Source of the DNA: Actinomycetaceae bacterium MB13-C1-2
Lineage (GTDB): Bacteria > Actinomycetota > Actinomycetes > Actinomycetales > Actinomycetaceae
NCBI GenBank assembly: GCA_035621235.1
Contig: CP141731.1
Span: forward strand, 1,674,001 to 1,738,000
DNA: 64,000 bases
Direction of reading: 5' to 3'
Shown: one piece after another, positions 39,086 through 57,069 of the stretch
Position numbering within the stretch: the stretch's first letter is position 1
How the letters are laid out: every line of letters begins with the position of its first letter
Notes under the pieces: generated by a model
The model's database searches: none
Told to the model about the DNA's origin: nothing
What the model saw: the letters and a program-made list of their open reading frames with translations, nothing else
Position numbers and translations under genes: made by a program

Positions 39086-39694
39086 ATGAACAGGAGTAGT
39101 CGCTTAGACGAGGCGGTTGTAGCATCGACCAAGGCTATTGAAGATGAAATAGTCGCGCTCTCGTCGGCAACGCAGGGAATCGATGATGAGCTGGCCGCCG
39201 CGCTGACAGTCCTTAGCGGGACTACGGGCAAAATTGTCGTCTCCGGCATTGGAAAGCCGGGGCACATAGGCAAAAAGATTGCAGCCACACTCGCCTCAAC
39301 CGGATCGCCTGCGTTCTTTATTCATTCGACTGAAGCCTTACATGGCGATTCGGGCATGGTGAGACCGGGAGACACCGCGTTGCTGATGTCAAACTCCGGA
39401 ACCACCGCCGAAGTCTGTGCATTTGCGGCAATGCTAAAGGAATGGGGTATTCCCATCGTCGCTATGACAAGAAGCGCTCAATCGCCTTTAGGGCAGCTAG
39501 CGGATGCGACCATAGAACTCAGGATTCCGCGAGAGGCGGACCCGCTGGGTCTCGCGCCTACCAGTTCTACCACGCTCAAGCTCGTGCTCGGAGACGCGCT
39601 TGCTATTGGCCTAATGTCGCTCAGCGGTTTCACGGCCGAGGATTTCGCAAAACACCACCCGGGCGGCGCACTGGGCGTACAACTGAAGGGTTGA
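39086..39694 (+). CDS. SIS-domain sugar-phosphate isomerase, KdsD/KpsF-like (arabinose-5-phosphate isomerase)
   Basis: A 202-residue single SIS domain resembling arabinose-5-phosphate isomerases. Family landmarks are KIVVSGIGKPGHIGKKIAATLASTG, AFFIHSTEALHGDSGM, LLMSNSGTTAEV, LAPTSSTTLKLVLGDALA and DFAKHHPGGALG. KdsD-type enzymes interconvert D-arabinose 5-phosphate and D-ribulose 5-phosphate; the two C-terminal CBS domains of E. coli KdsD are absent. There is no sign of lipopolysaccharide Kdo synthesis in an actinobacterium, so a catabolic role is inferred: feeding D-arabinose from the neighbouring D-arabinan enzymes into the pentose phosphate pathway. First gene after a LacI operator. Confidence 0.85.
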   Translation: MNRSSRLDEAVVASTKAIEDEIVALSSATQGIDDELAAALTVLSGTTGKIVVSGIGKPGHIGKKIAATLASTGSPAFFIHSTEALHGDSGMVRPGDTALLMSNSGTTAEVCAFAAMLKEWGIPIVAMTRSAQSPLGQLADATIELRIPREADPLGLAPTSSTTLKLVLGDALAIGLMSLSGFTAEDFAKHHPGGALGVQLKG

Positions 39695-39756: not shown

Positions 39757-40656
39757 GTGAAAACGGTAGCCGTTGTTGGCACATTCATGATGGATCTCGT
39801 TGCGCGAGCTCCTCGTCGGCCATTGCCGGGCGAAACGATCGTCGGCTCAGACTTCTATGTGTCTGAGGGAGGTAAGGGATTCAACCAGGCCGTTGCTGCG
39901 GCGCGCGCCGGGGCACCTACCGCGATGATCGGAGCGCTCGGCGAAGATGACTATGGACGCCAGTTCTTGTCATTTCTTGAACGAGAGGGAATCGACACGG
40001 AAGGGGTTCTAGTTACCGGAACGGGGACAGGTGTTGGACTTCCGGTGATAGTCAATGACGGCGGCAATTCCATTGTGATCGTCCGACGGGCGAACGAGGC
40101 AGTAACCGCTGAGATGGTGCGTGAGTCTTTAGATGCGCTAGACGACGTGGGTGTTGTAGTTGGGCAGCTCGAACTAGATGTTCTGACCAGTACGGCAGCA
40201 GCCGAGTGGGCAGCACAGCACGGGGCGATATTCCTGCTAAATCCCGCTCCGATGTGCCCAATCCCTCCTGAACTGTTGAGAAACACCTCAGTCCTTACGC
40301 CGAACGAGGTTGAGCTTGAGGAGCTTTCTCGGCAGGTCTTTGGTGAGGTACTGGGTACCGAAGATACTGTCAGTCGACTCGCGAGCGAGTTCGAAGTGTC
40401 GGTGGTGGCAACGCTAGGGTCAAAGGGTGCGTTGGTGGCCGAGCGAAATGCCCCCGCGGTTCTGGTAGAGGCCCCAGTCGTTAAGGCAGTGGACACCGTT
40501 GGTGCGGGCGATACCTTCTGCGGCTATCTCGCGGCGGGTCTAGCACGAGGCGAGAGCCTGTCTGAAGCCGCTCCTCGCGCCTGTGCGGCAGCCTCATTGT
40601 CCGTGACGCGACAGGGAAGTGCGGTATCGGTACCGCGCCTTGATGAGCTGCTCTAG
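39757..40656 (+). CDS. PfkB-family sugar kinase (ribokinase-like)
   Basis: A 299-residue cytoplasmic kinase. The substrate motif GGKGFNQAVAAARAG near residue 43 and the ATP/catalytic motif KAVDTVGAGDTFCGYLAAG near 250, with its catalytic Asp, are typical of ribokinase. Ribokinases phosphorylate the 5-hydroxyl of furanose sugars; here D-arabinose is the inferred substrate, giving D-arabinose 5-phosphate for the adjacent isomerase. D-ribose remains the plain alternative. GTG start with GAGG upstream, 62 bases after the isomerase gene. Confidence 0.88.
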   Translation: MKTVAVVGTFMMDLVARAPRRPLPGETIVGSDFYVSEGGKGFNQAVAAARAGAPTAMIGALGEDDYGRQFLSFLEREGIDTEGVLVTGTGTGVGLPVIVNDGGNSIVIVRRANEAVTAEMVRESLDALDDVGVVVGQLELDVLTSTAAAEWAAQHGAIFLLNPAPMCPIPPELLRNTSVLTPNEVELEELSRQVFGEVLGTEDTVSRLASEFEVSVVATLGSKGALVAERNAPAVLVEAPVVKAVDTVGAGDTFCGYLAAGLARGESLSEAAPRACAAASLSVTRQGSAVSVPRLDELL

Positions 40657-40731: not shown

Positions 40732-41730
40732 ATGGGAGATCGGATCACTGTCCAGGACGTTGCAAGGCGGGCGAAGGTGTCTGCGGCTACAGTCTCGCGA
40801 GTCTTCAATGGGGTCTCGAGTGTTGACTCCGACATGGCAAAGAGAGTACGCAAGGCCGCTTCTGACCTTTCATACGTGCCGAATCCGTATGGACGAGCCC
40901 TCAGACGCCAGCAAAGCGACATCTGGACCGTCATCGTCTCCGACCTTCAGAATCCGTTCTATACGAGGCTGGTAGCGGACATAGAGTCGATCGGAAAAGA
41001 GCAGGGGTTTTCGGTCATGCTCGCTACTTCTGACGAGGATCTTGAGAAAGAGCGTCGCCATATCGAGGTCGCCCTTTCTCAGCAGATGGCGGGGGTGGTC
41101 ATCTCTCCGTCGTCTGAGTCTCAGACCGACCTGACCGCGCTTATGAACGCTGGAATCCCGGTGGTGGTCGTTGACCGCCATATCTCCGGGTACACCGGCG
41201 CGTCAGTTATGGTCGACAACGTTCAGGTGGGAACCTTGGCGGCTGAGCATTTGCTTGAGTGCGGCTACACGACCCCCGCGGTCATAACCTCTTCCAAGGA
41301 TGTCTCCTCGGCACACGATAGAAGCAGAGGGTTCGTTGATACTCTGCGGGCGGCGGGAGTTCCGGTTCCGAGTGAGAGGATCTACACCACCGATCTTCGC
41401 TACGATTCTGGGCGCGAAACCATGCTTCGGATGTTGGAAGAGCATCCGGAGATCGATTCGCTCTTCACAGTCAATGGCCCCCTGACTGCGGCGGCTTTCA
41501 CGGTATTCAAGGATGAGAAAATTGCAGTTCCAGAGTCCGTCGCGCTCGTTGGCGTTGATGACGATCAATGGACTGCGATGGTCACGCCAGCAGTGACTGT
41601 TGTTCGGCAACCGGTCTCGGATGTGGGCCGCATCGCCGGAGAACTATTGAGTCAAGCTAACGGGCTGAAAAGCCTCGCCGGCGCAAAGGTTGTGCTCAGT
41701 CCCGAGTTGGTCGTCAGAGAGTCCATGTAG
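40732..41730 (+). CDS. LacI-family transcriptional regulator (first of two)
   Basis: A 332-residue repressor with the N-terminal helix-turn-helix ITVQDVARRAKVSAATVSRVFNG, hinge helix region NPYGRALRRQQ, and periplasmic-binding-like effector domain ending TVVRQPVSDVGRIAGELL. It is embedded in the sugar-catabolism genes and most likely senses an arabinan-derived sugar. One or both LacI proteins of the island should bind the ATCGAT-centred palindromes. Confidence 0.92.
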   Translation: MGDRITVQDVARRAKVSAATVSRVFNGVSSVDSDMAKRVRKAASDLSYVPNPYGRALRRQQSDIWTVIVSDLQNPFYTRLVADIESIGKEQGFSVMLATSDEDLEKERRHIEVALSQQMAGVVISPSSESQTDLTALMNAGIPVVVVDRHISGYTGASVMVDNVQVGTLAAEHLLECGYTTPAVITSSKDVSSAHDRSRGFVDTLRAAGVPVPSERIYTTDLRYDSGRETMLRMLEEHPEIDSLFTVNGPLTAAAFTVFKDEKIAVPESVALVGVDDDQWTAMVTPAVTVVRQPVSDVGRIAGELLSQANGLKSLAGAKVVLSPELVVRESM

Positions 41731-41774
41731 ACGGATTCCATGGCGATAATTCCGGTGAACAAGAAAAGGTGGAA

Positions 41775-42194
41775 ATGCTAAAGGGAATAAATCCGCTTAT
41801 AGGACCCGATCTGCTCCAAGCTCTTGCAGCCATGGGGCATGGCGACCAGATAGTCATCGCAGATAGGAACTTTCCGTCTCATCGGATAGGAGAGCGCGTT
41901 GTAGAACTGCGCGGTCATGATGCGCCCACTGTGGTGGCAGCGATATGCGAACTGTTGCCGTTGGACCTGAGCGTCAAGCAACCCGTTCTCCGAATGAAGA
42001 CAGCTGATGGTGGTACTCCCGAGGTTCATGCTGAGGTGGTGGAGCTGGTGGATGCGCTTCTTGAAGAGGGTCAGAGCGTCGGTGAAGTCGAACGCTTTGA
42101 CTTCTATGATCAGGCTGAACAGGCCTACCTTGTTGTAGTTACTGGCGAAACCCGTCCGTATGGAGACTTCATTCTGACAAAGGGCGTCATCTAG
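41775..42194 (+). CDS. FucU/RbsD-family sugar mutarotase, FucU type
   Basis: A 139-residue RbsD/FucU protein very like E. coli FucU: MLKGINPLIGPDLLQALAAMGHGDQI carries the catalytic His in MGHGD, and the C-terminus has FYDQAEQAYLVVVTGE and YGDFILTKGV. FucU interconverts anomers of L-fucose; D-arabinose shares the L-fucose ring configuration, so it fits as substrate. The protein would supply the ring form needed by the PfkB kinase, as RbsD does for ribokinase. ATG 41775 follows AGGTGG closely; a GTG at 41769 is the alternative. Confidence 0.88.
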   Translation: MLKGINPLIGPDLLQALAAMGHGDQIVIADRNFPSHRIGERVVELRGHDAPTVVAAICELLPLDLSVKQPVLRMKTADGGTPEVHAEVVELVDALLEEGQSVGEVERFDFYDQAEQAYLVVVTGETRPYGDFILTKGVI

Positions 42195-42510: not shown

Positions 42511-42524
42511 GGAAATCGATTTCC
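42511..42524. promoter_or_regulatory. LacI operator before the binding-protein/permease operon
   Basis: GGAAATCGATTTCC is a perfect 14-bp palindrome, sharing the GAAATCGATTTC core with six other sites in the island. It lies 122 bases upstream of the binding-protein start. Confidence 0.8.
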
Positions 42525-42646: not shown

Positions 42647-44026
42647 ATGCAAACAGGAAAGCGCCGATTCGCTTCGGTGGCAGCGGTGGCTTCAGTCACG
42701 GCATTGCTACTGAGCGCGTGTAGTGGTGGAAGTGGTGGTCAGTCCCAGTCGACCGACGAGGGGACCGCTGCTCCTGACAGTGGTGACAAGGTAACCATTG
42801 AGTTCTGGCATCGCACGTTTACCCCCGTTGAAAACGAGTGGTACACGCAGATCGTTGAGGACTTCAATAACTCACAAGACGAAATTTTCGTAAATGACAC
42901 TGAGATCCCTGCCGATGCTTGGGATCAACGCATGAAGGCTGCCCAGGCTGCAGGTAATGCTCCCGACGTCTACACACATGCTGGTTCCATACAGGATGCG
43001 GTAAATGCGGGACAGCTTCATGAACTGAACGGTATTGTTTCTGACGATGCTCTGGGTCAAATCATTGACTCGGCTCTGCCGGTTTCTGCTATCGGAGACA
43101 AGTTCTATGCCTATCCGCTCTTGCTTGAGCCTCAGACCGTCTTGTTCTGGAACAAGGACATGCTTGAAGCGGCTGGGCTTGACCCGGAGGTTGGGCCCTC
43201 GACCTGGCAGGATCTGATGGACGCTTGCGCGGCCATCAAGCCGACGCTCGCCGCGGGCCAGTTCTGTATTTCGCCCGCCGGTGATGCACCGACATTCGCT
43301 TGGTCAACTGTCGGACAGCAATACAATTTCTCTGGTCACACCGCTCTGAATGACACATGGACAGAGCCGAACATCAACGATCAGGGTTACAAGGATCTCA
43401 TGGACTCATACAAGGCTCTTTGGGACAACGACTATATGCCGAAGCAGCCGCTTGGACCGTACGTTGAGGGACGCGAGTTCGGCGAAGAGAAGGTAGCTTT
43501 CAAGGTATCTGGGTCGTGGATGATGTCTGAGATCGGATCGGACTTCCCGGATGTGCTTGGTCGCACAGGCATCGGAGCCTTCCCGAACTCACCGAATGCT
43601 GACGGTCGTACCGCCACAACTATGGGCAACTTCAAGTGGGTTGTGGATGCGAAAGCTAAGAATGCCGAAGCAGCCGGAAAATTCCTAGAATGGGCGATTG
43701 CCGGCGATCCCGCTAATCTGGTTCCGTTCTTCGTGGAGACTCAGTTCACCAAGGTCCCGGTTCGTATGTCGGTGCAGGAGGCAGTATCTGCGGATGCGGC
43801 AGCTGATGATGCTCCATGGTCCGCAATCGTCATGAATGACATTGCGCCAACCGCTATTCCCGAACCAAGTTACCCATGGGATGTCTCGCTTGCAGTGGGA
43901 ACTGCGATCGAGAAGGTAATGAAGGGTGCAGCTTCGACAGACGAAGCGATCAAGACCGCTGAGGACGAGATCCGCGTGGTGATTGAACGCGAAAACCTGC
44001 CGGAGAAGGCGCCGTCAGAAGGTTAG
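42647..44026 (+). CDS. Sugar ABC transporter substrate-binding lipoprotein (first)
   Basis: A 459-residue family-1 solute-binding protein with lipobox LLLSACSGG, then a Ser/Gly/Gln linker. The domain shows VTIEFWHRTFTPVENEWY, RMKAAQAAGNAPDVYTHAG and the C-terminal YPWDVSLAVGTAIEKV. AGGAGGGATTA precedes the ATG. It should present an oligosaccharide, here inferred to be an arabino-oligosaccharide, to the two permeases downstream. Confidence 0.92.
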   Translation: MQTGKRRFASVAAVASVTALLLSACSGGSGGQSQSTDEGTAAPDSGDKVTIEFWHRTFTPVENEWYTQIVEDFNNSQDEIFVNDTEIPADAWDQRMKAAQAAGNAPDVYTHAGSIQDAVNAGQLHELNGIVSDDALGQIIDSALPVSAIGDKFYAYPLLLEPQTVLFWNKDMLEAAGLDPEVGPSTWQDLMDACAAIKPTLAAGQFCISPAGDAPTFAWSTVGQQYNFSGHTALNDTWTEPNINDQGYKDLMDSYKALWDNDYMPKQPLGPYVEGREFGEEKVAFKVSGSWMMSEIGSDFPDVLGRTGIGAFPNSPNADGRTATTMGNFKWVVDAKAKNAEAAGKFLEWAIAGDPANLVPFFVETQFTKVPVRMSVQEAVSADAAADDAPWSAIVMNDIAPTAIPEPSYPWDVSLAVGTAIEKVMKGAASTDEAIKTAEDEIRVVIERENLPEKAPSEG

Positions 44027-44090: not shown

Positions 44091-45056
44091 GTGAGCACTA
44101 GAGACGTCATGACTCTCGAGCAAGAGGGCATAATCGGCACGATGGAGAAGCCGCCAAAAGCCGGTCGAAAAATGAAAAGATCCAAGGCACGATCATCTGG
44201 GGTTATGCCTTATCTGATGGTCTTGCCAGCACTGGTAATGCTAGGAATCTTCGTGATCTGGCCAGCCGTCTATGCGGGCTTCTTATCGTTCCACGACTGG
44301 AGTTTCTATAAGGACCCCGCGTTCGTGGGCTTTAGGAACTACGCAAACGTTCTCAAGGACCCACTGTTCTGGGCGGCTGTGCGCAGAGGCTTCATTTTTG
44401 TTGCCATGACGGTACCAGTAATGCTGGTGCTTGCTTTCCTGTTCTCGTCGTTGGTGGTTAGTGTCTCTCGTCGCTTCGCCTCGGTCCTAAAGGTGAGCAT
44501 ATATATACCGACAATCATCTCTGCAGTTATCGCCTCGATAATCTTCGTCCTTATTTACGATTACTCTGGTGGTCTTCTAAATGCGCTACTGGGAGTTTTC
44601 GGAGTGGATCCGGTCGCGTGGATCGGAGATCCACGCTGGGCCCTCTTCGCGATAGCTGTTCCGGCCATCTGGCTCGGTATGGGGTTAACGTCCTTGATCA
44701 TGGTTGCCGGAATGATCGACATCCCACAAGAGTTCTACGAAGCGGCTTCGATGGAGGGTGCCAACTGGTGGCAAAAGACCTTCTATATAACCCTTCCCCA
44801 GATGAAAAACATACTTCTTTATCTGCTGATCACGGGATTCGTTTCGGCCATCCAGCAGTATGAGCTTCCGCTGGTTATGACCGGAGGAGGTCCACTGGAC
44901 TCCACGACGACACCGAACCTGTTTATCTTCAACCACTTCCGCAATGACATGAACGTCGGCTACTCGATAGCCGCAGCCCTGTTGTTGTTCGTCGTTTTGG
45001 GCAGTATCTCGGCGCTGGTATTCAAGTTCGTCAACTCGGAAAGGTTGGTTGATTAG
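44091..45056 (+). CDS. Sugar ABC transporter permease (MalF-like)
   Basis: A 321-residue inner-membrane subunit with about six helices after a ~35-residue cytoplasmic tail. The EAA coupling loop is YEAASMEGANWWQKTFYITLP. GTG start at 44091 with GAGGAG upstream, 64 bases after the binding-protein stop. No ATPase is encoded in the island, so a shared MsmK/UgpC-type ATPase elsewhere is expected. Confidence 0.92.
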   Translation: MSTRDVMTLEQEGIIGTMEKPPKAGRKMKRSKARSSGVMPYLMVLPALVMLGIFVIWPAVYAGFLSFHDWSFYKDPAFVGFRNYANVLKDPLFWAAVRRGFIFVAMTVPVMLVLAFLFSSLVVSVSRRFASVLKVSIYIPTIISAVIASIIFVLIYDYSGGLLNALLGVFGVDPVAWIGDPRWALFAIAVPAIWLGMGLTSLIMVAGMIDIPQEFYEAASMEGANWWQKTFYITLPQMKNILLYLLITGFVSAIQQYELPLVMTGGGPLDSTTTPNLFIFNHFRNDMNVGYSIAAALLLFVVLGSISALVFKFVNSERLVD

Positions 45057-45057
45057 C

Positions 45058-45948
45058 ATGGCGCAGACAACGCTTCCGCCCAGTGCGGACCTTGAGAACA
45101 CATCCGCGAAGACGAAACATGACCGTGGTGGGGCCTGGTGGTTCTACACGATTGGCAAGGCCTTCTTTGGCTCAGTCTTTGTGGTCGTGGCGCTTTTTCC
45201 ACTGGCCTGGATGGTCATAGCAGGATTCAAATCGAAGACAGAGGTCATATCTACCCCGTTTCAGTTCTTCCCGGAAGTGTGGAAGTGGGAGAACTACACC
45301 CAGATTCTCTCTGATCCGACGTTTATGAAGACGATGGGATGGACCTTCATGGGTGCGATCCTGTTTACTCTGCTGGCGCTTACAATCAACTCATTGGCTG
45401 CGTATGCTTTTGCTCGCCTCGATTTTAGGTTCAAGAGTGCTCTCTGGGTCATTGTCATCACGACGATGTTTATTCCCGGAATGACCATTCTATTGACTAG
45501 CTTCGTGGTGGTCTCCGACCTAGGAATGCTGGATTCATTGGCAGTACTGGTCCTTCCGGGTGCTGCCAGCGCGGCAACAATATTCTTTATCAGGCAGTTC
45601 TATCTGAGCATTCCCTCGTCTCTAGAAGAGGCGGCGATGCTAGATGGTTGTAGCCGTTTCCAGATTTTCTGGCGATTGTTCCTTCCACTGTCGAAAGCCC
45701 CGTTCGTCGTTATGGGAATTACCACTTTCCTTGCGTACTGGAACTCGTACGTCTGGCCCATCATGACGATCACCAATCCAGATATGTACGTGGTACAGCA
45801 GTATCTAGCGACCTTCCGATCCGAACGTTCAACAGAACTCGGCCTGCTGATGGCTGGATCTGTGCTCGCAGCCGCGCCGGTAATCATCCTGTTCTTAATC
45901 TTCCAGAAGCAGATCATTGGAAATATCAAGATGGCCGGATTGAAGTAA
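45058..45948 (+). CDS. Sugar ABC transporter permease (MalG-like)
   Basis: A 296-residue membrane subunit with six helices and the EAA loop LEEAAMLDGCSRFQIFWRLFLP, followed by SKAPFVVMGITTFLAYWNSYVWP. The ATG at 45058 is one base after the first permease's stop; a TTG at 45049 is possible. It forms the translocation pore with the preceding protein. A perfect hairpin terminator follows. Confidence 0.92.
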   Translation: MAQTTLPPSADLENTSAKTKHDRGGAWWFYTIGKAFFGSVFVVVALFPLAWMVIAGFKSKTEVISTPFQFFPEVWKWENYTQILSDPTFMKTMGWTFMGAILFTLLALTINSLAAYAFARLDFRFKSALWVIVITTMFIPGMTILLTSFVVVSDLGMLDSLAVLVLPGAASAATIFFIRQFYLSIPSSLEEAAMLDGCSRFQIFWRLFLPLSKAPFVVMGITTFLAYWNSYVWPIMTITNPDMYVVQQYLATFRSERSTELGLLMAGSVLAAAPVIILFLIFQKQIIGNIKMAGLK

Positions 45949-47000: not shown

Positions 47001-48638
47001 TTAGCTACCTGTATGGTCTAGCCAGACCTCCAGTTCAGTCACCGACGTGAACTGAGCGTCCCCTCCCGGCTCTCCGATGATTCGGACTGCATCGGCACAG
47101 ACTCTTGGGAACCGAAACTCGTACTCATCCCACTCCAGAGCCGTGTAGTCATTCGGGTAAGAGGGGGAGACGCTCACGTCGTCGATTGTTCTCCACTGTC
47201 CGTCCGTGCGTATTTCGACTTGAGGACCTGTTCTAAACCAGCCACCCTGTGAGTCCTGAGGTCCCGGACAATAAATGATCCGATCGAAACAGCGCGGAGT
47301 CGGCCACTGGTATCCCCAGTAGTGAGAACCGTTGTTTGGGCCGTATGCAGAATCTTCACCGATGTCGCGACGACCGTCATTTAGCACTACAGTCTGACCT
47401 TCCCGAACCCGCGCGACCAACGGGTACGTGTCGGCATCGAGCGCAACATTGCGGGGGACGAAAGAAGACGGTCCTACATCATTCCCCAAGTCCTGCTTCA
47501 AAATGACTTTGCGCATCCCGTACGAATACGCCCGTCCACCCCTGGTAGAAGCAGGGGCGAACCAGTTGCTTTGCATCCACATCACGGTGCCGTCATCCGA
47601 GATGAACTTGGAGGGGATAGTGGGCGCATAACCACCGTGTTTGGCAATGGGAGATTTCGGACCTTGCCACGGAATGTGACCGTAATCGATAGAACCGATG
47701 TGATTCCATGGTCCCCACGGTCGTGGAGCTTCGTAGAACTCGTGTGTGAACTCACTCCACGAGCTATAGATATACCGCTGAAGGCCGGGGTTCCAAACCA
47801 CGCCACCTTGCGCGACGCGCGTGTGGTCGCCACGACCACCGAAGCCGAGTGGCTCGGGGTACATGCGGGTCTGGTCCGTAAGCACGGGCATCTTGTCTTC
47901 TATGGATGAAGACCAAATCGGCTGGTCGCCGCTATCCCCGGCATAGAACTGCCACTTGCTACGATCTTGGATGGAATCAATCGGGACTTTTGCAAGGAAG
48001 AGCTCGGTTGGATCCGGTTGGATGCGAGAGTGAGAGGTTCTCCAGTTACCGTCCAGGCCGTATGCGTATGCCCACCTGTTCCCACGGTTTGACTGGCCCA
48101 GGTCTAGAAACATGATTGTTGTGAACCTGTGGTCGGTGAACATGGGTGTTTCGGCCCAGGACCATGTCTTACCGTAGTCATCGGAGCGCACGATCGTGGC
48201 CGTGGGTGCCTCGTCGAAAGCGTTGCCGACATCAGGACGCCGCAGGTCTTGGACCGCCAGATAGAGCTCGTCCTTTCCGTTTCCATCCCCGTCAGCCGCC
48301 AGCATTCCAGTAGGTTTCCTGTTGAATGAGACTGAGTCCCAAGTGGGGGCGATATCCTCGCCATCACTTAGTCGCTCTCCACTCAGGTCCGTTTCTGGAC
48401 TACCGTCAATCCGATTCATGACGATATCGCTCCAACCGTGCCTAGCGAAGCCCGTGCCGTCGCCACATGCGGAATACAGGGCGCCGTCATCAGCCCAGGC
48501 CGATGGCCAGAGGTCTCCGTCGCTGTTGCTTGACACCGAGTTTGCCTGCTCGACGTGGAGAACTCTTACCTGCAGTGGAGAGTCATCGGGCGATACTGGG
48601 ACCGAGTCAGACTCTAGGTCGCTAAAGGAGCTCATCAT
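47001..48638 (-). CDS. DUF4185 / GH183 endo-D-arabinanase-like protein with C-terminal beta-sandwich, cytoplasmic
   Basis: A 545-residue protein without signal peptide. Residues ~40-390 are a DUF4185 five-bladed-propeller-type domain. Its landmarks, DGDLWPSAWADDGALYSACGDG, FNRKPTGML, AYGLDGNWRTS, PDPTELFLAKVPIDSIQDR and FYEAPRPWGPW, recur in the lipoprotein at 54685. The last ~150 residues resemble a discoidin/F5-8C carbohydrate-binding domain (FTSVTELEVW). DUF4185 is now GH183, with reported endo-D-arabinanase activity on mycobacterial D-arabinan. Here it probably cuts imported oligosaccharides. It follows the GH172 gene by 17 bases. Confidence 0.85.
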   Translation of the reverse strand: MMSSFSDLESDSVPVSPDDSPLQVRVLHVEQANSVSSNSDGDLWPSAWADDGALYSACGDGTGFARHGWSDIVMNRIDGSPETDLSGERLSDGEDIAPTWDSVSFNRKPTGMLAADGDGNGKDELYLAVQDLRRPDVGNAFDEAPTATIVRSDDYGKTWSWAETPMFTDHRFTTIMFLDLGQSNRGNRWAYAYGLDGNWRTSHSRIQPDPTELFLAKVPIDSIQDRSKWQFYAGDSGDQPIWSSSIEDKMPVLTDQTRMYPEPLGFGGRGDHTRVAQGGVVWNPGLQRYIYSSWSEFTHEFYEAPRPWGPWNHIGSIDYGHIPWQGPKSPIAKHGGYAPTIPSKFISDDGTVMWMQSNWFAPASTRGGRAYSYGMRKVILKQDLGNDVGPSSFVPRNVALDADTYPLVARVREGQTVVLNDGRRDIGEDSAYGPNNGSHYWGYQWPTPRCFDRIIYCPGPQDSQGGWFRTGPQVEIRTDGQWRTIDDVSVSPSYPNDYTALEWDEYEFRFPRVCADAVRIIGEPGGDAQFTSVTELEVWLDHTGS

Positions 48639-48655
48639 TAGGCTTTCTGGCGCCG

Positions 48656-49792
48656 TTACGATTGCGGCTCGCGTGGGGGAGTCGCCCCAACATCGGGTAC
48701 GGGTCCGGCACCTAAATGGACCTCCAAGTCGTCGGCGCTGGGCGTTCTTGGGCGTCGAGCCGTCGGTCGGTCTAAATAGAACATTGCAGTCGAGGCGATG
48801 TCGTCCCTAAGCGGCAAGTACCTCCAGCCACTACGCCAGCCAAGTGCCTGAATGTCGACCCTTGGGACTCCCTTTGAGAAGTTGATCGGATCCTGGATGT
48901 GGAAACGGTACATACCGAATCGTTGTTGGGATACGTACAGGCCGTCCGGTCGGATGACCTGAGGCATACCCAGATACGGAGTAGAGAAGGTTGTGTAGCC
49001 GTCCCCAGGAACATCGAAGTTCCAGGCGCCTCCGAAGTAGTCCTCTGTTCCAGTCCCACAAATTGTTGGATAGTCGGTGTCATCGTCGAGGTAGAACTTG
49101 ATCTCGCCTTCGCCCCACCAACCGTTGGAGTTGCTACCCCACGCAATGTAGGTGCCGACATACTGCCCGTGCCCCTCTACACCTTCGAGAATCACATGGG
49201 GAGTCAACTCCTCTAACGGATTCGACCGACGCCACTGGGAGTGGAAATACCCCTCGTTCGAGTAGTCGCCTCCCAGTTCGTATGTGATTTGATAGTAAAT
49301 CCGAACGTCCACTGTCGATGTGTTCTCGATCGTCAACCGTGCGCTCTCTTGAAAAGGCATGGGCCAATACGAGTTGAATCCACCGTTTGGGTTGGCCGCA
49401 ATCGGCTGCGAGTCCACTTGAGCAAAGACGCCCCATCCGTTGCAGAAAAAGTCGCCGTAGGGAACCTCTACAGCGGGTTCACTTGCTCCGTCCCAGAATG
49501 CCCGAAGAATAAGTGTGCGCCAGTTGTCGGTGTGGGTGGTCATCCAGATGTGGGTGATCTTGCCGGCAGTCGTAATATTGGCCAGTTCGAATGTCTCTCC
49601 AGGCTTGATATCCACGCTAGGAGAGATCTTCCAACCGGTCCCAAGATCGCGGGCACAATCAGCTCCGGTTCCTTCGGTCGCCATCCCCCCTTTTCCGGGG
49701 GACCCGTCGAAGTTCTCGGGCGAAATCGAGCGCGTCTGCACATTTCGAAGCGCACTGATAGCCGACAAACCGCTTCCAAGAGGTTCTGCCAT
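48656..49792 (-). CDS. DUF2961 / GH172 exo-D-arabinofuranosidase-like enzyme, cytoplasmic
   Basis: A 378-residue DUF2961 protein without signal peptide. The two segments expected to carry the catalytic glutamates are present: WWGEGEIKFYLDDD and ICGTGTEDYFGGAWNF; the N-terminal ISPENFDGSPGKGG and DFFCNGWG match the family. GH172 members include alpha-D-fructofuranosidases and exo-alpha-D-arabinofuranosidases; with two GH183 genes nearby the latter is inferred. The ATG at 49792 sits nine bases after AGAAGG; one at 49798 is only three bases away. It heads a two-gene unit with the GH183 gene and faces the GH116 gene across a 237-base region with two LacI sites. Confidence 0.85.
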   Translation of the reverse strand: MAEPLGSGLSAISALRNVQTRSISPENFDGSPGKGGMATEGTGADCARDLGTGWKISPSVDIKPGETFELANITTAGKITHIWMTTHTDNWRTLILRAFWDGASEPAVEVPYGDFFCNGWGVFAQVDSQPIAANPNGGFNSYWPMPFQESARLTIENTSTVDVRIYYQITYELGGDYSNEGYFHSQWRRSNPLEELTPHVILEGVEGHGQYVGTYIAWGSNSNGWWGEGEIKFYLDDDTDYPTICGTGTEDYFGGAWNFDVPGDGYTTFSTPYLGMPQVIRPDGLYVSQQRFGMYRFHIQDPINFSKGVPRVDIQALGWRSGWRYLPLRDDIASTAMFYLDRPTARRPRTPSADDLEVHLGAGPVPDVGATPPREPQS

Positions 49793-49865
49793 AGTCATAT
49801 ACCTTCTACTAGTCGGAGCACATCTCTGTGCTTATTTCGATGCGAAAGCAGACCCACAAAAGGTG

Positions 49866-49879
49866 GGTAATCGATTTCA
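49866..49879. promoter_or_regulatory. LacI operator between GH172 and GH116 genes (near GH172)
   Basis: GGTAATCGATTTCA keeps the ATCGATTTC half of the consensus. It continues AATAAGTTATCAT, almost the same as after the operator at 56002, so a shared promoter layout is likely. Confidence 0.65.
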
Positions 49880-49963
49880 ATAAGTTATCATCGACTTCAG
49901 ATAGGTGTCAAAGGTCCTGACAGCTAAAGAAGGCTTCGGGACATAATCGTCGGCTCATATATG

Positions 49964-49977
49964 AGAAATCGATTTCT
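49964..49977. promoter_or_regulatory. LacI operator before the GH116 gene
   Basis: AGAAATCGATTTCT is a perfect palindrome identical to the site at 39045, 52 bases before the GTG start at 50030. Confidence 0.82.
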
Positions 49978-50029
49978 ATTACTACCAATTAAGATAGTGT
50001 TCTCTTCAACGTTCAGGAGGGTTTCAACG

Positions 50030-52615
50030 GTGGACAATCACGAGCCATATTCCGATGTTTATAGCACCAGTAGCAAGAGCGACACAGATACGTGGCGGGT
50101 TCGGCGCCGTTCCAGGGGAATTCCACATACCAGCGAAGCTACCGCGTTTCCTCTCGGAGGCATTGGGACCGGGAACGTGTCGATCGGAGCGCGAGGCGAA
50201 TTGCGTGACTGGGAGCTCGAGAATCACCAGGACAAGGGGCGCGATAACCCGTATAGTTTTTTCTCAATTTTCGTAAAACCGGAAGGGGAACAACCGATCA
50301 CCCGGGTGTTGGAGGCCCGTCGAACCGGTCGGCTAGATCGTGACATCGGATTCTCATTTGATCAGACGGCAGGACTCCCACGTTTGGAGTCAGCGACGCT
50401 TTTTGGTGAGTATCCAGTTGTTGAGGTCGACTTTGACGACGATGAACTTCCCGTGATTGTTACTCTGCGCGCGTTTACTCCTTTGGTGCCACTTGATGCC
50501 GACCGTTCGGGCGTTCCGGGCGCGGTTCTGAGATATTCAGTCACGAATCCGGGGCGGCTCCCTGTTGACGTTACGGTTGCTGGCTCGATGAGCCACACGG
50601 CGGGACGCGGGGATGGACCGTTTGGCATGCGTGCCAAACAGAGTGTCAGGTTTCGGGAACAAGGCAATATTCGCGGGCTAGATTTCGGAGTCGACTTGCC
50701 CGAGGATGATTTTGGGTATGGAACACTGAGCCTTACCACCACCGCGGACGAAATAACGGTTAAGCCGCAGTGGGTTACGGGCTTTTGGCCCGATGGTTCT
50801 CGGCTGTTCTGGGATGACCTCAGCGATGATGGGATGTTGGATGCGGAACCCAGGCTGACACTTGAGGACAGGCCAAGAGGTCTGTTTGGAGCTAACGTGC
50901 CCCCAGGGCCGATGTCGGAAGAAGACCTGTTCGATCATCTTCCGCGTATCCGTACTGGATCTCTTGGGATTCCAAAACGGCTTCTTCCGGGAGAGACAGC
51001 CGAGTTTGAATTTGTGCTCTCCTGGTGTTTCCCGAACAGGCATCGCGCTTGGCAAGGACACATGGGCCTTGAGAACACGAATGAGAACCAGGTGGTCAAG
51101 AACCACTACGCGACGCTCTGGCCCGAGGCATGGGCGGCGTCCGAGTATCTGCACGAGAATCTGGCAGAACTTGAGTCCATAACTGACAGCTACGTTGATT
51201 CGTTGTATGACTCAACGCTAGATCCCGCGATCATTGATGCCATCGGTGCAAACGTCGCGGCGCTTCGTTCCACCACCTGTTTCGTCGTCGAGAGTCCTAA
51301 TCCCCAGATTGGGACGGGGCCGGTCTTTGCGGCGTGGGAGGGATCGTTCGATCACGGAGGCGCGTGTGAGGGAACGTGCACCCACGTGTGGTCATATGCT
51401 CAAACAGCCGCGTACCTGTTCCCGAGTCTCGAGCGTTCAGCGCGCCGAGTCGAGTTTTTACTTGAGACAGACGGTGAAGGGGCGCAGAAGTTTCGGACGA
51501 ATCGCGTCTTCGGTGGACCGCCCTGGTATATGACTCCGGCTGTTGATGGGCAGTTGGGAACGTTCCTCCGGTTGTATCGCGAGTGGAAGTTCAGCGGGGA
51601 TGACGACTTCCTTAAGGAACTTTGGCCGGCCGCCGTTTCGAGTCTTGAGTATGCGACCACCACGTGGGATAGAAATGGTGATGGTTTGCTGGACGGCGAG
51701 TTGCACAACACCTACGACATAGAGTTTTACGGTATCGATCCGCTCGCAAACGGAATTTACCTGGCGGCGCTGCGATCCGGTGAGCAGATGGCCGGATACC
51801 TTGGGGAGCGGGAGCTTGCAGCACGGTGGCACTCGCTCGCGGCAACGGTTGCCGAGCAGATGGATACCGTGCTCTGGAATGGAGCTTGGTATCGGCAAGT
51901 TCTGGATGACGTCGACGAACACAGATATCAGTACGGCGAAGGAGTCCTATCTGACCAACTCCTGGGGCAGTACCATGCCTATGTCACCGGGCTAGGCGAG
52001 ATCCTTCCTAGGGAACGTGTGCGATCGGCTCTTCGCTCGATCTTCCAGCACAACTTCCGCACGGACCTCAGTCACCATGAGAGTACACAACGCGTTTACG
52101 CTCTTAACGATGAGGGCGGGTTGCTTTTGGCGTCCTGGCCGACAGGTGGACGTCCAAGAATTCCCTTCATCTACTCCGATGAAGTATGGACCGGTATCGA
52201 ACACCAAGTCGCTGCGTCACTCGCCTTTGCTGACTTGACGGACGAAGCCGTGAAGATCGAGCAATCCTTGCGCGCAAGATACGACGGGAGCTCGCGTAGT
52301 CCGTGGTGCGAGATTGAGTGGGGGAATCATTACGCGCGGTCGTTGGCGTCTTGGTCTTTGCTCCTCGCATTCACGGGAACCCAGTGGGATGCTCCAAGCA
52401 AAACTCTCAGTTTTGATCCCCGTGTCCCCCTCCCAATGAAGGCACTCTTCACGACGGGAGATGGTTGGGGAAGTGTCACTATTGAGGAGAATCGTCTCAT
52501 TGTCCGCTTGCTTGGGGGCAGATTGGACGTGAAGGATGTCCGATTCCGAGGTAGTCGAGCAGGGGGACCACTAGTACTAGAGGAGGGAGACGAGGCCGTT
52601 ATCGATCTCGCATAG
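50030..52615 (+). CDS. GH116-family glycoside hydrolase, cytoplasmic
   Basis: An 861-residue protein with the two-domain GH116 (GBA2-like) layout. The N-terminal beta-sandwich opens AFPLGGIGTGNVSIGARGEL; the (alpha/alpha)6 catalytic domain has HGGACEGTCTHVWSY near residue 445 (probable nucleophile Glu) and GELHNTYDIEFYGIDPLANG near 560 (probable acid/base Asp). No signal peptide. GH116 covers beta-glucosidases and beta-xylosidases, and also an exo-beta-D-arabinofuranosidase reported to act with GH172 and GH183 on mycobacterial D-arabinan; that role is inferred here. The GTG at 50030 has AGGAGGG eight bases upstream; the longer frame from 49961 would run through the operator. Confidence 0.86.
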   Translation: MDNHEPYSDVYSTSSKSDTDTWRVRRRSRGIPHTSEATAFPLGGIGTGNVSIGARGELRDWELENHQDKGRDNPYSFFSIFVKPEGEQPITRVLEARRTGRLDRDIGFSFDQTAGLPRLESATLFGEYPVVEVDFDDDELPVIVTLRAFTPLVPLDADRSGVPGAVLRYSVTNPGRLPVDVTVAGSMSHTAGRGDGPFGMRAKQSVRFREQGNIRGLDFGVDLPEDDFGYGTLSLTTTADEITVKPQWVTGFWPDGSRLFWDDLSDDGMLDAEPRLTLEDRPRGLFGANVPPGPMSEEDLFDHLPRIRTGSLGIPKRLLPGETAEFEFVLSWCFPNRHRAWQGHMGLENTNENQVVKNHYATLWPEAWAASEYLHENLAELESITDSYVDSLYDSTLDPAIIDAIGANVAALRSTTCFVVESPNPQIGTGPVFAAWEGSFDHGGACEGTCTHVWSYAQTAAYLFPSLERSARRVEFLLETDGEGAQKFRTNRVFGGPPWYMTPAVDGQLGTFLRLYREWKFSGDDDFLKELWPAAVSSLEYATTTWDRNGDGLLDGELHNTYDIEFYGIDPLANGIYLAALRSGEQMAGYLGERELAARWHSLAATVAEQMDTVLWNGAWYRQVLDDVDEHRYQYGEGVLSDQLLGQYHAYVTGLGEILPRERVRSALRSIFQHNFRTDLSHHESTQRVYALNDEGGLLLASWPTGGRPRIPFIYSDEVWTGIEHQVAASLAFADLTDEAVKIEQSLRARYDGSSRSPWCEIEWGNHYARSLASWSLLLAFTGTQWDAPSKTLSFDPRVPLPMKALFTTGDGWGSVTIEENRLIVRLLGGRLDVKDVRFRGSRAGGPLVLEEGDEAVIDLA

Positions 52616-52913
52616 GGCAACCTAGAGGTCCGCTATCTGGGCACATCACAATGACGCGTCACTCTCGAGCCTTGGACCGCCGTGGTAAGGCTGCTACTTG
52701 TCCGCACCATAGTGTTACGGCCGTCGGATGTCGGATCGTCGGTTCGGGCACGAAGCGGTTTTGGGTTTTCTTCGCAGCGAATATGGGAGAAGGCACAGGG
52801 GCCGGCAGCTGCGAACGAACTGGCGGGTTAGACATATCCTCCCGCTACGTAGATTGAGGGTTGCCTGATCTTCTGTTGTGTATCAGCGTGCCCGGCGACT
52901 CGCCATCAACCTC

Positions 52914-52927
52914 TGAAATTGATTTCA
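52914..52927. promoter_or_regulatory. LacI operator, distal, before second binding-protein gene
   Basis: TGAAATTGATTTCA differs from the consensus by one central base. It is 121 bases from the next site (53035), a spacing that would allow looping. 52616-52913 shows no gene. Confidence 0.7.
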
Positions 52928-53034
52928 CAGAAATGCCAGAAAAGCGCATCTACGAGCTGCGATCGTTACATTATTGATACGGGAAAACAGCTTGGATCCC
53001 TTGATCGTTAGCATGACCTGCCTCATACTCAGAG

Positions 53035-53048
53035 TGAAATCGATTTCG
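53035..53048. promoter_or_regulatory. LacI operator, proximal, before second binding-protein gene
   Basis: TGAAATCGATTTCG, one base from a perfect palindrome, 75 bases upstream of the binding-protein ATG. Confidence 0.78.
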
Positions 53049-53123
53049 CATATCGCGAGTCGGTTGTCAACGGTGACGTCTAACAAGAGCATCGCCAGTC
53101 CTAGAAACAAATGAGGAAATCTA

Positions 53124-54491
53124 GTGAAAAATACGATCACACGAATATCCCTTGCAAGTGCGGCGGCTTTGACATTGCTTCTCATGTCGGCCTGCGGATC
53201 GAGCCCCAGTCAGTCGGGAGAAACCGGAGAGAGTTCATCTGAGTCCGGCACCGATGGTTCAGGAGCCGCTTGCGACACCGTAAGTTTCTGGCAAAACCAG
53301 TTCCAGCCGGAAGACAATGCGTGGTTCAAGGAGGCGGTTGACAAGTACAACGCCTCACAGGATCAGATAAAGGTGGAACTCACCGTTGTCCCAGGCGACG
53401 CGTGGGAGCAGAAGCTGAAAGCAGCCCAGGCTGCCGGAAGCGCACCAGACATGTACACAATGAACTATTCGGCAGTGCCAATGAACGCACGAAACGGTGC
53501 ACTGGCTCCTATTACGGAGTACATCTCAGAGGATTCTTGGGCCGACCTCGACACCAGGTTCCTGGATGCGGTTACTGTGGGCGACTCACAGTTTGCCTAC
53601 CCGCTCTACTACGAGCCAAGTGCACTTTATATGTACAGAACGGACCTCTTTGAGAAGGCGGGCCTGGGCCCTGATTCTGTGCCCACGACATATGACGAAC
53701 TGATCGAGACGGGCCGAACCCTCAAAGATGAACTCCCAGGGGTGGTTCCTTACCAGATGGCTCAAAACGCAACTGAGTTGGCCTGGTCAACTTGGGGTGC
53801 ACAACAAGGTAACGCCGGCCATCTACCGATATCTGAGGATTGGTCAGAGGCGCTTGCAAACGACCCCGCCTATCTTCCGTTGTTCGACTTACTCCAGACA
53901 ATGTATTCAGACGGTACGTTGGCAAAGCAGGCCTTGTCCGCGTACGGAGATCTGACCCCGCTTGCCGAGGGGAAGCTTGCGAGTATGACAACAGGTTCAT
54001 GGGCGCTCAACCAGTTGCTTGTCGACTACCCAGATCAGGTGAAGAACATAGCGGTTACCCCGATGGCTACCGTCGATGGCGATCCGGCCCGCACGACTGC
54101 GACTCTCGGCGGTTGGACGGTAGGCGTCGACTCAAAGTCTGAATGCGTGGCGGAAGCCGCCGAGGCTATTGGCTACATGCTGGGTGGAGATCCGAGTCTG
54201 GCAAAGGATTACTTCGTTAAGACTAAGTACACAAAGCTCTCACCCAGGACCAGCGTTTCGGAAGACTTAGCCGATGACCCAGAACGGTCTGAGAATCCCT
54301 TCTACGATGTACTCGCCGGATCGACCAAGACCGCCATTCTGGAGCCAACCTATGACTGGCAGGTATCCATGGCATTTGGTACTGCGCTTGAAAAAGCCAT
54401 GTTTGGCGAGGATTCTGTGAACGCTCAGAACCAGGCACAAACAGAGATCGAACGGCTCATTAAGGATCTGGATCTTCCAGCCACGCGCTAG
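53124..54491 (+). CDS. Sugar ABC transporter substrate-binding lipoprotein (second)
   Basis: A 455-residue paralogue of the protein at 42647. The lipobox is LLLMSACGSS, followed by a Ser/Glu/Gly linker; DTVSFWQNQFQPEDNAW, KLKAAQAAGSAPDMYTMNY and YDWQVSMAFGTALEKA align with the first copy. No permease genes follow, so it may share the permeases at 44-46 kb and widen the range of imported oligosaccharides. Monocistronic: two LacI operators in front and a 19-bp terminator behind. The ATG at 53145 is not used, the GTG at 53124 reading VKNTITRI gives a proper signal peptide. Confidence 0.9.
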   Translation: MKNTITRISLASAAALTLLLMSACGSSPSQSGETGESSSESGTDGSGAACDTVSFWQNQFQPEDNAWFKEAVDKYNASQDQIKVELTVVPGDAWEQKLKAAQAAGSAPDMYTMNYSAVPMNARNGALAPITEYISEDSWADLDTRFLDAVTVGDSQFAYPLYYEPSALYMYRTDLFEKAGLGPDSVPTTYDELIETGRTLKDELPGVVPYQMAQNATELAWSTWGAQQGNAGHLPISEDWSEALANDPAYLPLFDLLQTMYSDGTLAKQALSAYGDLTPLAEGKLASMTTGSWALNQLLVDYPDQVKNIAVTPMATVDGDPARTTATLGGWTVGVDSKSECVAEAAEAIGYMLGGDPSLAKDYFVKTKYTKLSPRTSVSEDLADDPERSENPFYDVLAGSTKTAILEPTYDWQVSMAFGTALEKAMFGEDSVNAQNQAQTEIERLIKDLDLPATR

Positions 54492-54533
54492 CTTTTGGAT
54501 TGCTCGCTGCGAGTCCGAACTACCTAACACACT

Positions 54534-54572
54534 GATTGGGTGGCGGTTCTAAGTTAGAACCGCCACCCAATC
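54534..54572. terminator. Bidirectional terminator between convergent genes
   Basis: A perfect 19-bp inverted repeat (GATTGGGTGGCGGTTCTAA and complement) around a single G, between the binding-protein stop and the GH183 stop on the other strand. Confidence 0.85.
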
Positions 54573-54684
54573 TGGTTTCAGCTATTGCGCCGGGGCAGTG
54601 AAGGTGTTTCATGCCTTTAGGCGTGGTCCAAAGAAGCAGTAGGCACCTTTCACCGCGCCTCAGAACGGAGAGGCGGGTGAGGGC

Positions 54685-55812
54685 CTAGTCGATGGATAGA
54701 GTCACTGGTCTTAGGCCAAACCAATATGAGGACATTCCTGCGGGCGCACATGGGCAGACGTTGGACTGAATCCAAATGTCTAGGCCGTCCTCTGACATGA
54801 ACTTTGAAGGAGCAGTTACCCCATACCCGCCGTAGCTATCTGTTGTCCACGGGTATAGGCCGAAGTCTTCTGATTGGAATAGAGTCCACGGACCCCAGGG
54901 TTCGGGTGCCTCATAGAACTCAAACGTATGTTCCGTCCAAGACGTATAGAGGTAGCGGTCTAGTGCTGGAAGGTAAAGGACTCCTCCCTGCGACAGCACT
55001 GACATTCCGTTTCCTGCGTCTCCCTGGTGGACTCTTCGTTCGTCTACCAGAACCGGCCGCTTTTCGTTGATGTCCGAGGTCCAGGTGGGCTCCTTCGCTC
55101 CGGCTTCGCCGGCAAAAAACTCCCATTTGGCCCTGTCCTGTACGGAATCTACCGGGACCCGTGCGAGGAAAAGCTCGGTTGGATCCGGCACGATCTCGGT
55201 ATATGAGGTTCGCCAGTTTCCGTCAAGGCCGAAGGCGTAGGCGTATTCGGAATCTGGGGCATTCGTGGAATCCTGACCGTAGTCCGCAAACCAAATTGTG
55301 GTGAATGTGTGGTCGTCAAACATCGGAGTGGACGTGTCCCAACTCCACGTCTCACCGTGGTCATCGCTGCGTGCAATCGTGGCGGCAGGAGCTTCATTGA
55401 AGTCGAGTGCCAGGTCCTCGACTGCCACATATATGGATCCATTCACGCAGAGCATGCCAGTTGGCTTCCGCGTATAGTCGCCGCCACTCCAAACCTGGCT
55501 CAGTTGATCGCCAACGGCCAGCGTTTCACCGGAGAGATTGTTCTCCTCGGGAGACCCGGTAATCCGATTCATTACGACATCGGCGGTCTGGAATCCGAAT
55601 CCCGCCCCATCGCCGTTGGCGGCGTAAAGGTTTCCATCGTCCGACCAACAATTGGCCCACAGATCGCCGTCAGACACGCCGACTTCGGTAACGACTGGCG
55701 CAATTTCCGCGGAGGTAAGGGCGTGCGTAGACGTTGAAGAACATCCTGTTAGTCCGGCAATAACTATGCAGGAGATAGCTGCCACTACCTGATTCTCGCG
55801 TGTTGTTCTCAC
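54685..55812 (-). CDS. DUF4185 / GH183 endo-D-arabinanase-like surface lipoprotein
   Basis: A 375-residue lipoprotein with signal VVAAISCIVIAGLTGCSS, then a DUF4185 domain over the rest of the chain. It shares DGDLW, YTRKPTGML, AFGLDGNWRTS, PDPTELFLARVPVDSVQDR and FYEAPEPWGPW with the cytoplasmic GH183 protein at 47001 but lacks the C-terminal beta-sandwich. As the only exported hydrolase of the locus it should make the first endo-cuts in extracellular D-arabinan. The GTG at 55812 is chosen (GGAGG eight bases upstream) over an ATG at 55827. It is divergent from the second lacI gene. Confidence 0.86.
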   Translation of the reverse strand: MRTTRENQVVAAISCIVIAGLTGCSSTSTHALTSAEIAPVVTEVGVSDGDLWANCWSDDGNLYAANGDGAGFGFQTADVVMNRITGSPEENNLSGETLAVGDQLSQVWSGGDYTRKPTGMLCVNGSIYVAVEDLALDFNEAPAATIARSDDHGETWSWDTSTPMFDDHTFTTIWFADYGQDSTNAPDSEYAYAFGLDGNWRTSYTEIVPDPTELFLARVPVDSVQDRAKWEFFAGEAGAKEPTWTSDINEKRPVLVDERRVHQGDAGNGMSVLSQGGVLYLPALDRYLYTSWTEHTFEFYEAPEPWGPWTLFQSEDFGLYPWTTDSYGGYGVTAPSKFMSEDGLDIWIQSNVCPCAPAGMSSYWFGLRPVTLSID

Positions 55813-56001
55813 TATGCCGTCCTCCATTGGCTAGGCGTTTACCCCACTAGTTGCTAGGAGGCAGAAAGCGATCTCCAGTCCCACAGATTTCAGTGGCGAA
55901 CACGCCACTGCGATTCACTCGGGTCGATAACTACGACAATGACTATCGACAGCGGCATGGTTTTGTCGTCATTGCAGGCGGTGAACCCCATTTGCAGATG
56001 A

Positions 56002-56015
56002 TGAAATCGATTTCA
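56002..56015. promoter_or_regulatory. LacI operator between GH183 lipoprotein and second lacI genes
   Basis: TGAAATCGATTTCA is a perfect palindrome 55 bases before the lacI ATG. A -10-like TAACAT follows at 56022. It could serve both divergent genes and autoregulate lacI. Confidence 0.8.
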
Positions 56016-56070: not shown

Positions 56071-57069
56071 ATGGCCACCATTTATGATGTCGCTCGTCTT
56101 GCTAAGGTCTCACCGGCCACGGTTTCGCGGGTCTTTAACGGGATCGGGGCGTCCAAAGAAAAGACTGATGCTGTTCGTAAAGCGGCAAAAGAACTCCGAT
56201 TCACCCCAAACCGCTCAGCACGTTCCCTGCGGCGGCAGAAATCAGAGATTCTTACTCTGGTCATCCCAGACATCGAGAATCCCTACTTTACTGAAGTTGC
56301 CCGAGGCGTTGAGGATGTTGCGCAGGAGGCGGGTTATTCATTGATGTTGTGCAACACGGATGGCGACCCGGAGAAAGAGGAACGGTACCTGCAAGTAGCC
56401 ATTTCCGAACACATCGCGGGTGTGATTATTGCCTGTGCCGGTCCGATGACGAACCTTGACGACGCTCTTGCTGCGGGACGTCAGATCGTGGCTGTTGACC
56501 GTGGTAGCTCTTACGACATTGATGAGGTCATCATGGCGAATACCAAAGCGGGTAGAGTCGCCACCGAAGACCTTGTGAGAAAGGGCTGCAAACGTATTGC
56601 TTGTATTACGGGGCCGCGCGAGCTGGATACGGCGTACGAACGTGCTGAGGGATGGAAGGCTGTAATGGGGCAGCATTTCCCTGACCTAGATCTCGACCCT
56701 CTGCTGCACTATTCGACTTTCCGCGTTGCCGATGGGAGGCGTTGTGCCGAGTTGCTAATGGCAATGCCGGAACCTCCAGATGCGATAGTCGCGGCAAATA
56801 ACCTTCTTGGGGTTGGGGCCATCCAGGTCTTGAGCGAGATGGGAATGGCCCCGCCAAAGATTGGCGTCTCAGTTATAGGTACCCTTCCGTTCACTACCCT
56901 GTCTCCAAGCGCCGTCACCGTTGTCAGACTTCCTGGTCGACAGATGGGAGAGACGGCGGCCAAGATGTTGCTGGAGCGAATCTCCGGAGACCGGCAACCT
57001 GCGCGCACAGTTGTGCTCCGTAACGAGGTCAAATCTGCAGGTCGACCAATAAATGGCACGAGTGGATGA
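56071..57069 (+). CDS. LacI-family transcriptional regulator (second of two)
   Basis: A 332-residue repressor: ATIYDVARLAKVSPATVSRVFNG forms the helix-turn-helix, TPNRSARSLRRQ the hinge; the effector domain ends SPSAVTVVRLPGRQMGETAAKMLLERI. Same length and layout as the regulator at 40732. It stands at the right edge of the island and is preceded by the shared palindrome, so it is the stronger candidate for regulating it. The ~180 bases after it contain only a weak direct repeat. Confidence 0.92.
   Translation: MATIYDVARLAKVSPATVSRVFNGIGASKEKTDAVRKAAKELRFTPNRSARSLRRQKSEILTLVIPDIENPYFTEVARGVEDVAQEAGYSLMLCNTDGDPEKEERYLQVAISEHIAGVIIACAGPMTNLDDALAAGRQIVAVDRGSSYDIDEVIMANTKAGRVATEDLVRKGCKRIACITGPRELDTAYERAEGWKAVMGQHFPDLDLDPLLHYSTFRVADGRRCAELLMAMPEPPDAIVAANNLLGVGAIQVLSEMGMAPPKIGVSVIGTLPFTTLSPSAVTVVRLPGRQMGETAAKMLLERISGDRQPARTVVLRNEVKSAGRPINGTSG

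Follow-up and report, generated by a model that had tools for sequence, protein, structure and literature searches.

A stretch of 64,000 nucleotides from the genome of Actinomycetaceae bacterium MB13-C1-2 (contig CP141731.1, positions 1,674,001 to 1,738,000; hereafter the window) was found to harbour what is probably a LacI-controlled locus for the utilisation of D-arabinan (39046-57069; Table 1), the polymer of D-arabinose that typifies the walls of mycobacteria and corynebacteria, which would be cut at the cell surface, imported and finished internally. This interpretation rests on gene content, the reading of signal peptides, a clade-wide absence of such signals, an operator pattern, predicted folds, residue conservation and gene linkage, and from these we infer all enzyme activities, uptake, binding of the repressor and the sequence of steps. 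The locus includes four hydrolase genes, two of which encode DUF4185 proteins (GH183a and GH183b), at the positions given in the original prediction; families were assigned with Pfam, including DUF2961 (GH172) at 48656-49798 and both GH116 domains in the frame 49961-52615.

The main basis for proposing D-arabinofuranose as the substrate is the closeness of GH172 to ExoMA1 (8IC8; 776 bits, with the next solved protein at 111 bits) and of GH116 to ExoMA2 (8IC6; 1251 bits, with the next at 108 bits). A scheme of an exported endo-enzyme, ATP-binding cassette (ABC) import and signal-less exo-enzymes has been published for Microbacterium arabinogalactanolyticum (Shimokawa et al. 2023, PMC10509167), hence the layout first predicted for the window was mostly known already. 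The locus of that organism likewise brings together GH183/DUF4185, GH172, GH116 and an ABC importer, encodes close homologues of GH172 and GH116, and combines exported endo-type enzymes with signal-less exo-enzymes; related Microbacterium loci also share the operator and the regulator LacI2. The present locus differs in having a signal-less, intracellular GH183-like enzyme and no EndoMA1-type gene in its regulon, and in encoding a ribokinase-type kinase and a KpsF-type isomerase where the Microbacterium relatives have an FGGY kinase. What sets it apart from the published scheme are the conserved cytoplasmic GH183-like enzyme, the divergence of the active site in the DUF4185 paralogues and the kinase/isomerase pair; the cytoplasmic enzyme and the final steps of sugar processing look new.

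Inspection of the regions upstream of the transcription units revealed a palindrome, TGAAATCGATTTCA, and variants of it, with eight matches (at most three mismatches) against 2.35 expected. The perfect core GAAATCGATTTC occurs five times in the genome, all within the window and one ahead of each transcription unit, whilst single-mismatch copies comprise two in the locus and three elsewhere in the genome. The operator is also present in the Microbacterium loci, adjoining an orthologous LacI2. Delimited by this predicted operator, the regulon is wider than the interval originally described, adding the ABC importer (42647-45948), a second binding protein, a sugar isomerase (SIS) domain isomerase, a PfkB kinase and an RbsD/FucU mutarotase. 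One predicted operator unites hydrolases, importer and sugar catabolism, which marks the region as a probable D-arabinan utilisation locus of the Gram-positive type. No gene for an importer ATPase was found in the locus, and a shared ATPase is presumed. The two sugar-binding proteins (SBP1 and SBP2) are 33% identical (149/450); SBP2 lacks permeases of its own, and both may share the single permease pair.

Only the lipoprotein GH183a had been predicted to be exported among the hydrolases, and within the locus this held. Signal peptides were called solely by our own reading of hydropathy, charge, lipobox and start codons. At its N-terminus GH183a combines a basic n-region with a hydrophobic segment and the lipobox LTG/C (signal VVAAISCIVIAGLTG followed by C), and its best N-terminal 11-residue hydropathy of 3.02 compares with 1.48 for GH172 and 0.35 for GH183b. 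By the same reading, GH183b, GH172 and GH116 carry no signal peptide, as had been predicted. GH172 aligns from near its N-terminus with ExoMA1, itself signal-less, and GH116 matches the signal-less ExoMA2. A longer reading of GH116 (start 49961, 884 amino acids), which begins on an operator copy (49965-49976), has a hydrophobic N-terminus that was considered as a signal; it was rejected, as it lies upstream of a strong ribosome-binding site and overlaps the operator. The likely start is the GTG at 50030 behind AGGAGGG (861 amino acids), with which this false hydrophobic N-terminus disappears. A mis-called start of GH183b was similarly rejected: the open frame upstream of it (56 codons, overlapping GH172, which ends 17 bases before the GH183b start) contains no ATG, GTG or TTG and no hydrophobic stretch, and a signal is also absent from the 17 nearest relatives.

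These signal-less relatives originate from at least seven genera (Microbacterium, Occultella, Ruania, Pseudactinotalea, Jiangella, Phytoactinopolyspora and a metagenome-assembled genome of the Bifidobacteriaceae). A quick tree of unknown root was built from 56 catalytic domains, with signal classes set by hand since the automatic detector missed signals resembling those of twin-arginine translocation (Tat); in it, 18 signal-less sequences including GH183b formed one clade (SH-aLRT, an approximate likelihood-ratio support, of 99). The neighbouring group consists of five lipoproteins (support 98), and GH183a falls in a separate clade of seven lipoproteins (support 97). A nineteenth signal-less sequence, from Microlunatus, was placed outside the GH183b clade, and Pseudactinotalea suaedae encodes one signal-less and one lipoprotein member. 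The simplest reading of this phylogeny is a single ancient loss of export in the GH183b clade. In four relatives of GH183b from the Pseudonocardiales, the open frame also includes a long N-terminal segment of no recognised identity.

With respect to family, GH183a scored 48.6 bits against the Pfam DUF4185 profile (cut-off 39.5). Neither paralogue matched EndoMA1 by phmmer, nor did their joint profile at E<=10, in a PDB set that contained it (8HHV). Nonetheless, EndoMA1 (8IC1/8HHV) was the top PDB fold for the AlphaFold models of both paralogues (predicted template modelling scores of 0.77 and 0.85), ahead of AraH2 of M. tuberculosis. The predicted five-bladed propeller is thus shared with EndoMA1 whilst a pairwise sequence match is undetectable. 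A profile-profile alignment with canonical DUF4185 (98.5%) equated Asp51, Arg198 and Glu243 of EndoMA1 with Asp60, Arg200 and Gln277 of GH183b. The acid/base Asp51 therefore corresponds to Asp60, and the nucleophile Asp33 to Asp42 by motif and spacing (18 to Asp60); GH183a has equivalents of both catalytic aspartates. GH183a and GH183b are consequently best described as a divergent DUF4185 branch that is GH183-like by predicted fold and catalytic pair. As originally predicted, the paralogues differ by a C-terminal beta-sandwich, present in GH183b and absent from GH183a. In the model this domain resembles CBM32 modules, although a Pfam search with it alone gave no match. The shared presence of a C-terminal sandwich had suggested GH183b as the EndoMA1 orthologue, which was rejected given the lack of a sequence match and the CBM4/61-like nature of the EndoMA1 sandwich (PMC10509167).

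Beyond the locus, the genome, which is one contig of 2.58 Mb, encodes a third DUF4185 protein at approximately 2383563, some 650 kb away (L001 1294-3573). This protein of 759 amino acids has a signal peptide, a C-terminal LPNTG sortase motif and a score of 405 bits to EndoMA1; neither locus genes nor near-perfect operator copies were found in its neighbourhood. The locus lipoprotein is hence not the sole exported GH183 of the genome, and the original claim of a single exported enzyme does not extend genome-wide.

The fate of the released sugar appears to lie with the isomerase and kinase of the regulon. The isomerase reached 202.1 bits with the KpsF/GutQ/KdsD profile (cut-off 203.7), covering the SIS half only, and is 46% identical to KdsD over 199 aligned positions, with K59, H88, E111, E152 and H193, which we take to be the active-site residues of E. 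coli KdsD, all conserved (5/5). Unlike KdsD and GutQ, it lacks CBS domains and resides in a catabolic locus. The kinase resembles E. coli ribokinase overall and differs from it in Gly98 and Pro100 (E. coli RbsK numbering). E. coli ribokinase is poor on D-arabinose, and its A98G substitution raises kcat 15-fold (PMC9604405). Among kinases linked to the isomerase, Gly98 was found in 12 of 15 and Pro100 in 14 of 15, compared with neither in any of 27 other ribokinases of the relatives (25 Ala and 2 Thr at position 98), after three sequences listed as controls proved to be the linked genes themselves and were left out; the Fisher p-values (4e-8 for Gly98, 3e-10 for Pro100) are both overstated by shared ancestry. 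Strong isomerase homologues occurred in 14 of 396 genomes, and 11 of these 14 belonged to the 20 genomes in which GH183a/b relatives occurred (p 7e-14, with no correction for kinship). The isomerase and kinase adjoin GH172, GH116 or DUF4185 genes in other genomes as well, and Microbacterium-type loci have an FGGY kinase in place of the pair, with both found together in none of the compared D-arabinan loci. We suggest that the window kinase and isomerase may convert D-arabinose via D-arabinose-5-phosphate to ribulose-5-phosphate. No description of this route for D-arabinan users was found in the open-access literature, a coverage that leaves out most subscription journals. In a smaller relative (1.5 Mb), an isomerase-kinase pair (L152 9493-15868) whose kinase has Ala98 is accompanied by an ABC importer, a distant FGGY kinase and none of the arabinan hydrolases.

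The polymer itself presumably comes from neighbouring Mycobacteriales, since the C-terminal domain of Emb arabinosyltransferases is absent from this genome (98.5% complete), with Corynebacterium glutamicum positive as a control; the organism would presumably feed on its neighbours' D-arabinan. GH183a/b relatives were absent from all five congeners, and the sampled family yielded only one weak match. Another genus of the family nonetheless encodes GH172, GH116, an importer, LacI1, kinase, mutarotase, a canonical DUF4185 and an isomerase 74% identical to that of the window (L153 1-17949). A surface endo-enzyme with an intracellular exo-enzyme has also been discussed for the epibiont M. amalyticus, which has a lipoprotein DUF4185 and a non-secreted GH172 (PMC10115798); in contrast, the present locus is a full regulon with importer, GH116, a second and intracellular DUF4185, and sugar catabolism.

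Several points weigh against this interpretation. GH183b scores 31 bits with the DUF4185 profile, under the cut-off; the essential Glu243 of EndoMA1 is replaced by glutamine in GH183b and in GH183a (Gln280), this glutamine being invariant in the alignments of both paralogues; the EndoMA1-type gene lies outside the operator regulon; and the two best-matched relatives (Microbacterium) have a different kinase. Activity of EndoMA1 was nearly abolished in its E243A and E243Q variants (PMC10509167), so that GH183a and GH183b are treated here as putative endo-D-arabinanases. There is accordingly an appreciable possibility, short of an even chance, that the paralogues are not endo-D-arabinanases and act in some other way, for example as exo-enzymes or on the branched, beta-capped ends left by EndoMA1, and that the EndoMA1 relative, both exported and EndoMA1-like, performs the endo-cutting. 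The missing sequence match and the invariant glutamine favour this, as do the Microbacterium loci, where a GH183a/b pair occurs on top of EndoMA1-type genes, and the branched heptasaccharide that EndoMA1 leaves (PMC10509167). Set against it are the retained pair of catalytic aspartates and the sugar-holding arginine, the EndoMA1-like fold, and the consequence that the regulon would lack a surface endo-enzyme of its own. It is rather unlikely that ribose or some other sugar is what the kinase and isomerase handle, with D-arabinose instead entering an isomerase-first route encoded elsewhere (an isomerase of the AraA or fucose-isomerase type with an FGGY kinase). RbsD and ribokinase homologues do mostly serve ribose, the genome has one AraA-type isomerase (678026) and three distant FGGY kinases, and the L152 pair stands without any hydrolase. 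The published Microbacterium scheme also names an isomerase and a kinase leading to ribulose-5-phosphate (PMC10509167). Conversely, the window pair shares its operator with the hydrolases, is recurrently linked to GH172/GH116 and occurs together with the Microbacterium-type FGGY kinase in none of the compared D-arabinan loci; the kinase bears the Gly98 signature, a separate ribokinase homologue is encoded at genome position 493471, and the fucose-isomerase variant was discarded as no fucose isomerase was found in the genome. A second GH172-family gene (L184, genome 690474-691220) lies about 12 kb from the AraA-type isomerase.

That GH183b is exported, from an overlooked start codon or by a non-classical pathway, with most of the cutting then taking place outside the cell, appears improbable. 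Rv3707c of M. tuberculosis was formerly believed to be signal-less through a misannotated start (PMC10115798), and exported relatives exist outside the GH183b clade, but the frame upstream of GH183b offers no usual start or hydrophobic stretch and overlaps GH172, and the signal is equally absent in 17 relatives with several gene arrangements. Recycling of the organism's own wall polymer is the least probable account; mycobacterial DUF4185 proteins do act on their own wall (PMC10115798), yet the absence of the Emb C-terminal domain led us to reject it here.

Other features of the region were also noted. Between the importer and GH183b (46150-46700, minus strand) there are short frames broken by stops that, judged by eye, resemble remnants of a small toxin-antitoxin pair. 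A GH38 alpha-mannosidase that lacks the operator is encoded at 1264-4317, at a distance of 36 kb from the locus; lipoarabinomannan can bear mannose caps. A recent horizontal arrival was not supported by base composition (G+C of about 0.55 for the locus itself, 0.57-0.59 for its flanks), whereas most loci with the same genes have a G+C of about 0.70.

Table 1. Features of the predicted D-arabinan utilisation locus (window coordinates).
Feature	Position	Strand	Remarks
Predicted operator	39046..39057		GAAATCGATTTC; upstream of SIS/PfkB/LacI1/RbsD
SIS-domain arabinose-5-phosphate isomerase homologue	39086..39694	+	KpsF/GutQ/KdsD type; CBS domains absent
PfkB ribokinase-type kinase	39757..40656	+	Gly at E. 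coli RbsK Ala98 position; candidate D-arabinose kinase
LacI1 regulator	40732..41730	+	
RbsD/FucU mutarotase	41769..42194	+	
Predicted operator	42512..42523		Upstream of SBP1 and permeases
SBP1	42647..44026	+	Lipoprotein sugar-binding protein of ABC importer
ABC permease 1	44091..45056	+	
ABC permease 2	45049..45948	+	
GH183b	47001..48638	-	545 amino acids; DUF4185 five-bladed propeller with CBM32-like C-terminal sandwich (predicted); no signal
GH172	48656..49798	-	Probable cytoplasmic exo-alpha-D-arabinofuranosidase; 776 bits to ExoMA1
Predicted operator	49867..49878		1 mismatch; GH172/GH116 intergenic region
Predicted operator	49965..49976		Upstream of GH116
GH116	50030..52615	+	Probable cytoplasmic exo-beta-D-arabinofuranosidase; 861 amino acids; 1251 bits to ExoMA2
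Predicted operator	52915..52926		1 mismatch; upstream of SBP2
Predicted operator	53036..53047		Upstream of SBP2
SBP2	53124..54491	+	Lipoprotein sugar-binding protein (SBP_bac_1); lipobox MSA/C; own permeases absent
GH183a	54685..55827	-	Lipoprotein DUF4185 propeller without C-terminal sandwich (Pfam, lipobox, model)
Predicted operator	56003..56014		GH183a/LacI2 intergenic region
LacI2 regulator	56071..57069	+	Adjoins GH172 in Microbacterium loci too

Taken as a pathway, surface cutting followed by import and internal trimming, as first predicted, remains the best reading, given that the importer, SBP2 and the enzymes share an operator, with the amendment that the genome encodes a further exported GH183 besides GH183a. 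The label of selfish uptake in the original prediction goes beyond this layout, adding the hypothetical claims that large oligosaccharides are imported and that little leaks out, on which the sequence is silent. The surface lipoprotein GH183a would cut the arabinan of neighbouring Mycobacteriales, perhaps helped by the sortase-anchored EndoMA1-type GH183 encoded elsewhere, and oligosaccharides would be taken up by SBP1 or SBP2 with the one permease pair. In the cytoplasm GH183b would shorten them, GH172 would release alpha-linked and GH116 beta-linked D-arabinofuranose, and the ribokinase-type kinase followed by the arabinose-5-phosphate isomerase would convert D-arabinose to ribulose-5-phosphate.

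D-arabinan-degrading enzymes are sought as analytical tools, and the locus points to a conserved, uncharacterised DUF4185-type pair of which one member is intracellular. It also offers a testable sugar route, with a kinase that parallels a laboratory-engineered ribokinase. The chances seem about even that a DUF4185 branch moved from the surface to the cytoplasm, was kept there across many actinobacterial genera with a chemistry altered for imported, branched D-arabinan fragments, and is accompanied by a so far undescribed D-arabinose-5-phosphate route that would depend on a ribokinase carrying the A98G exchange naturally.

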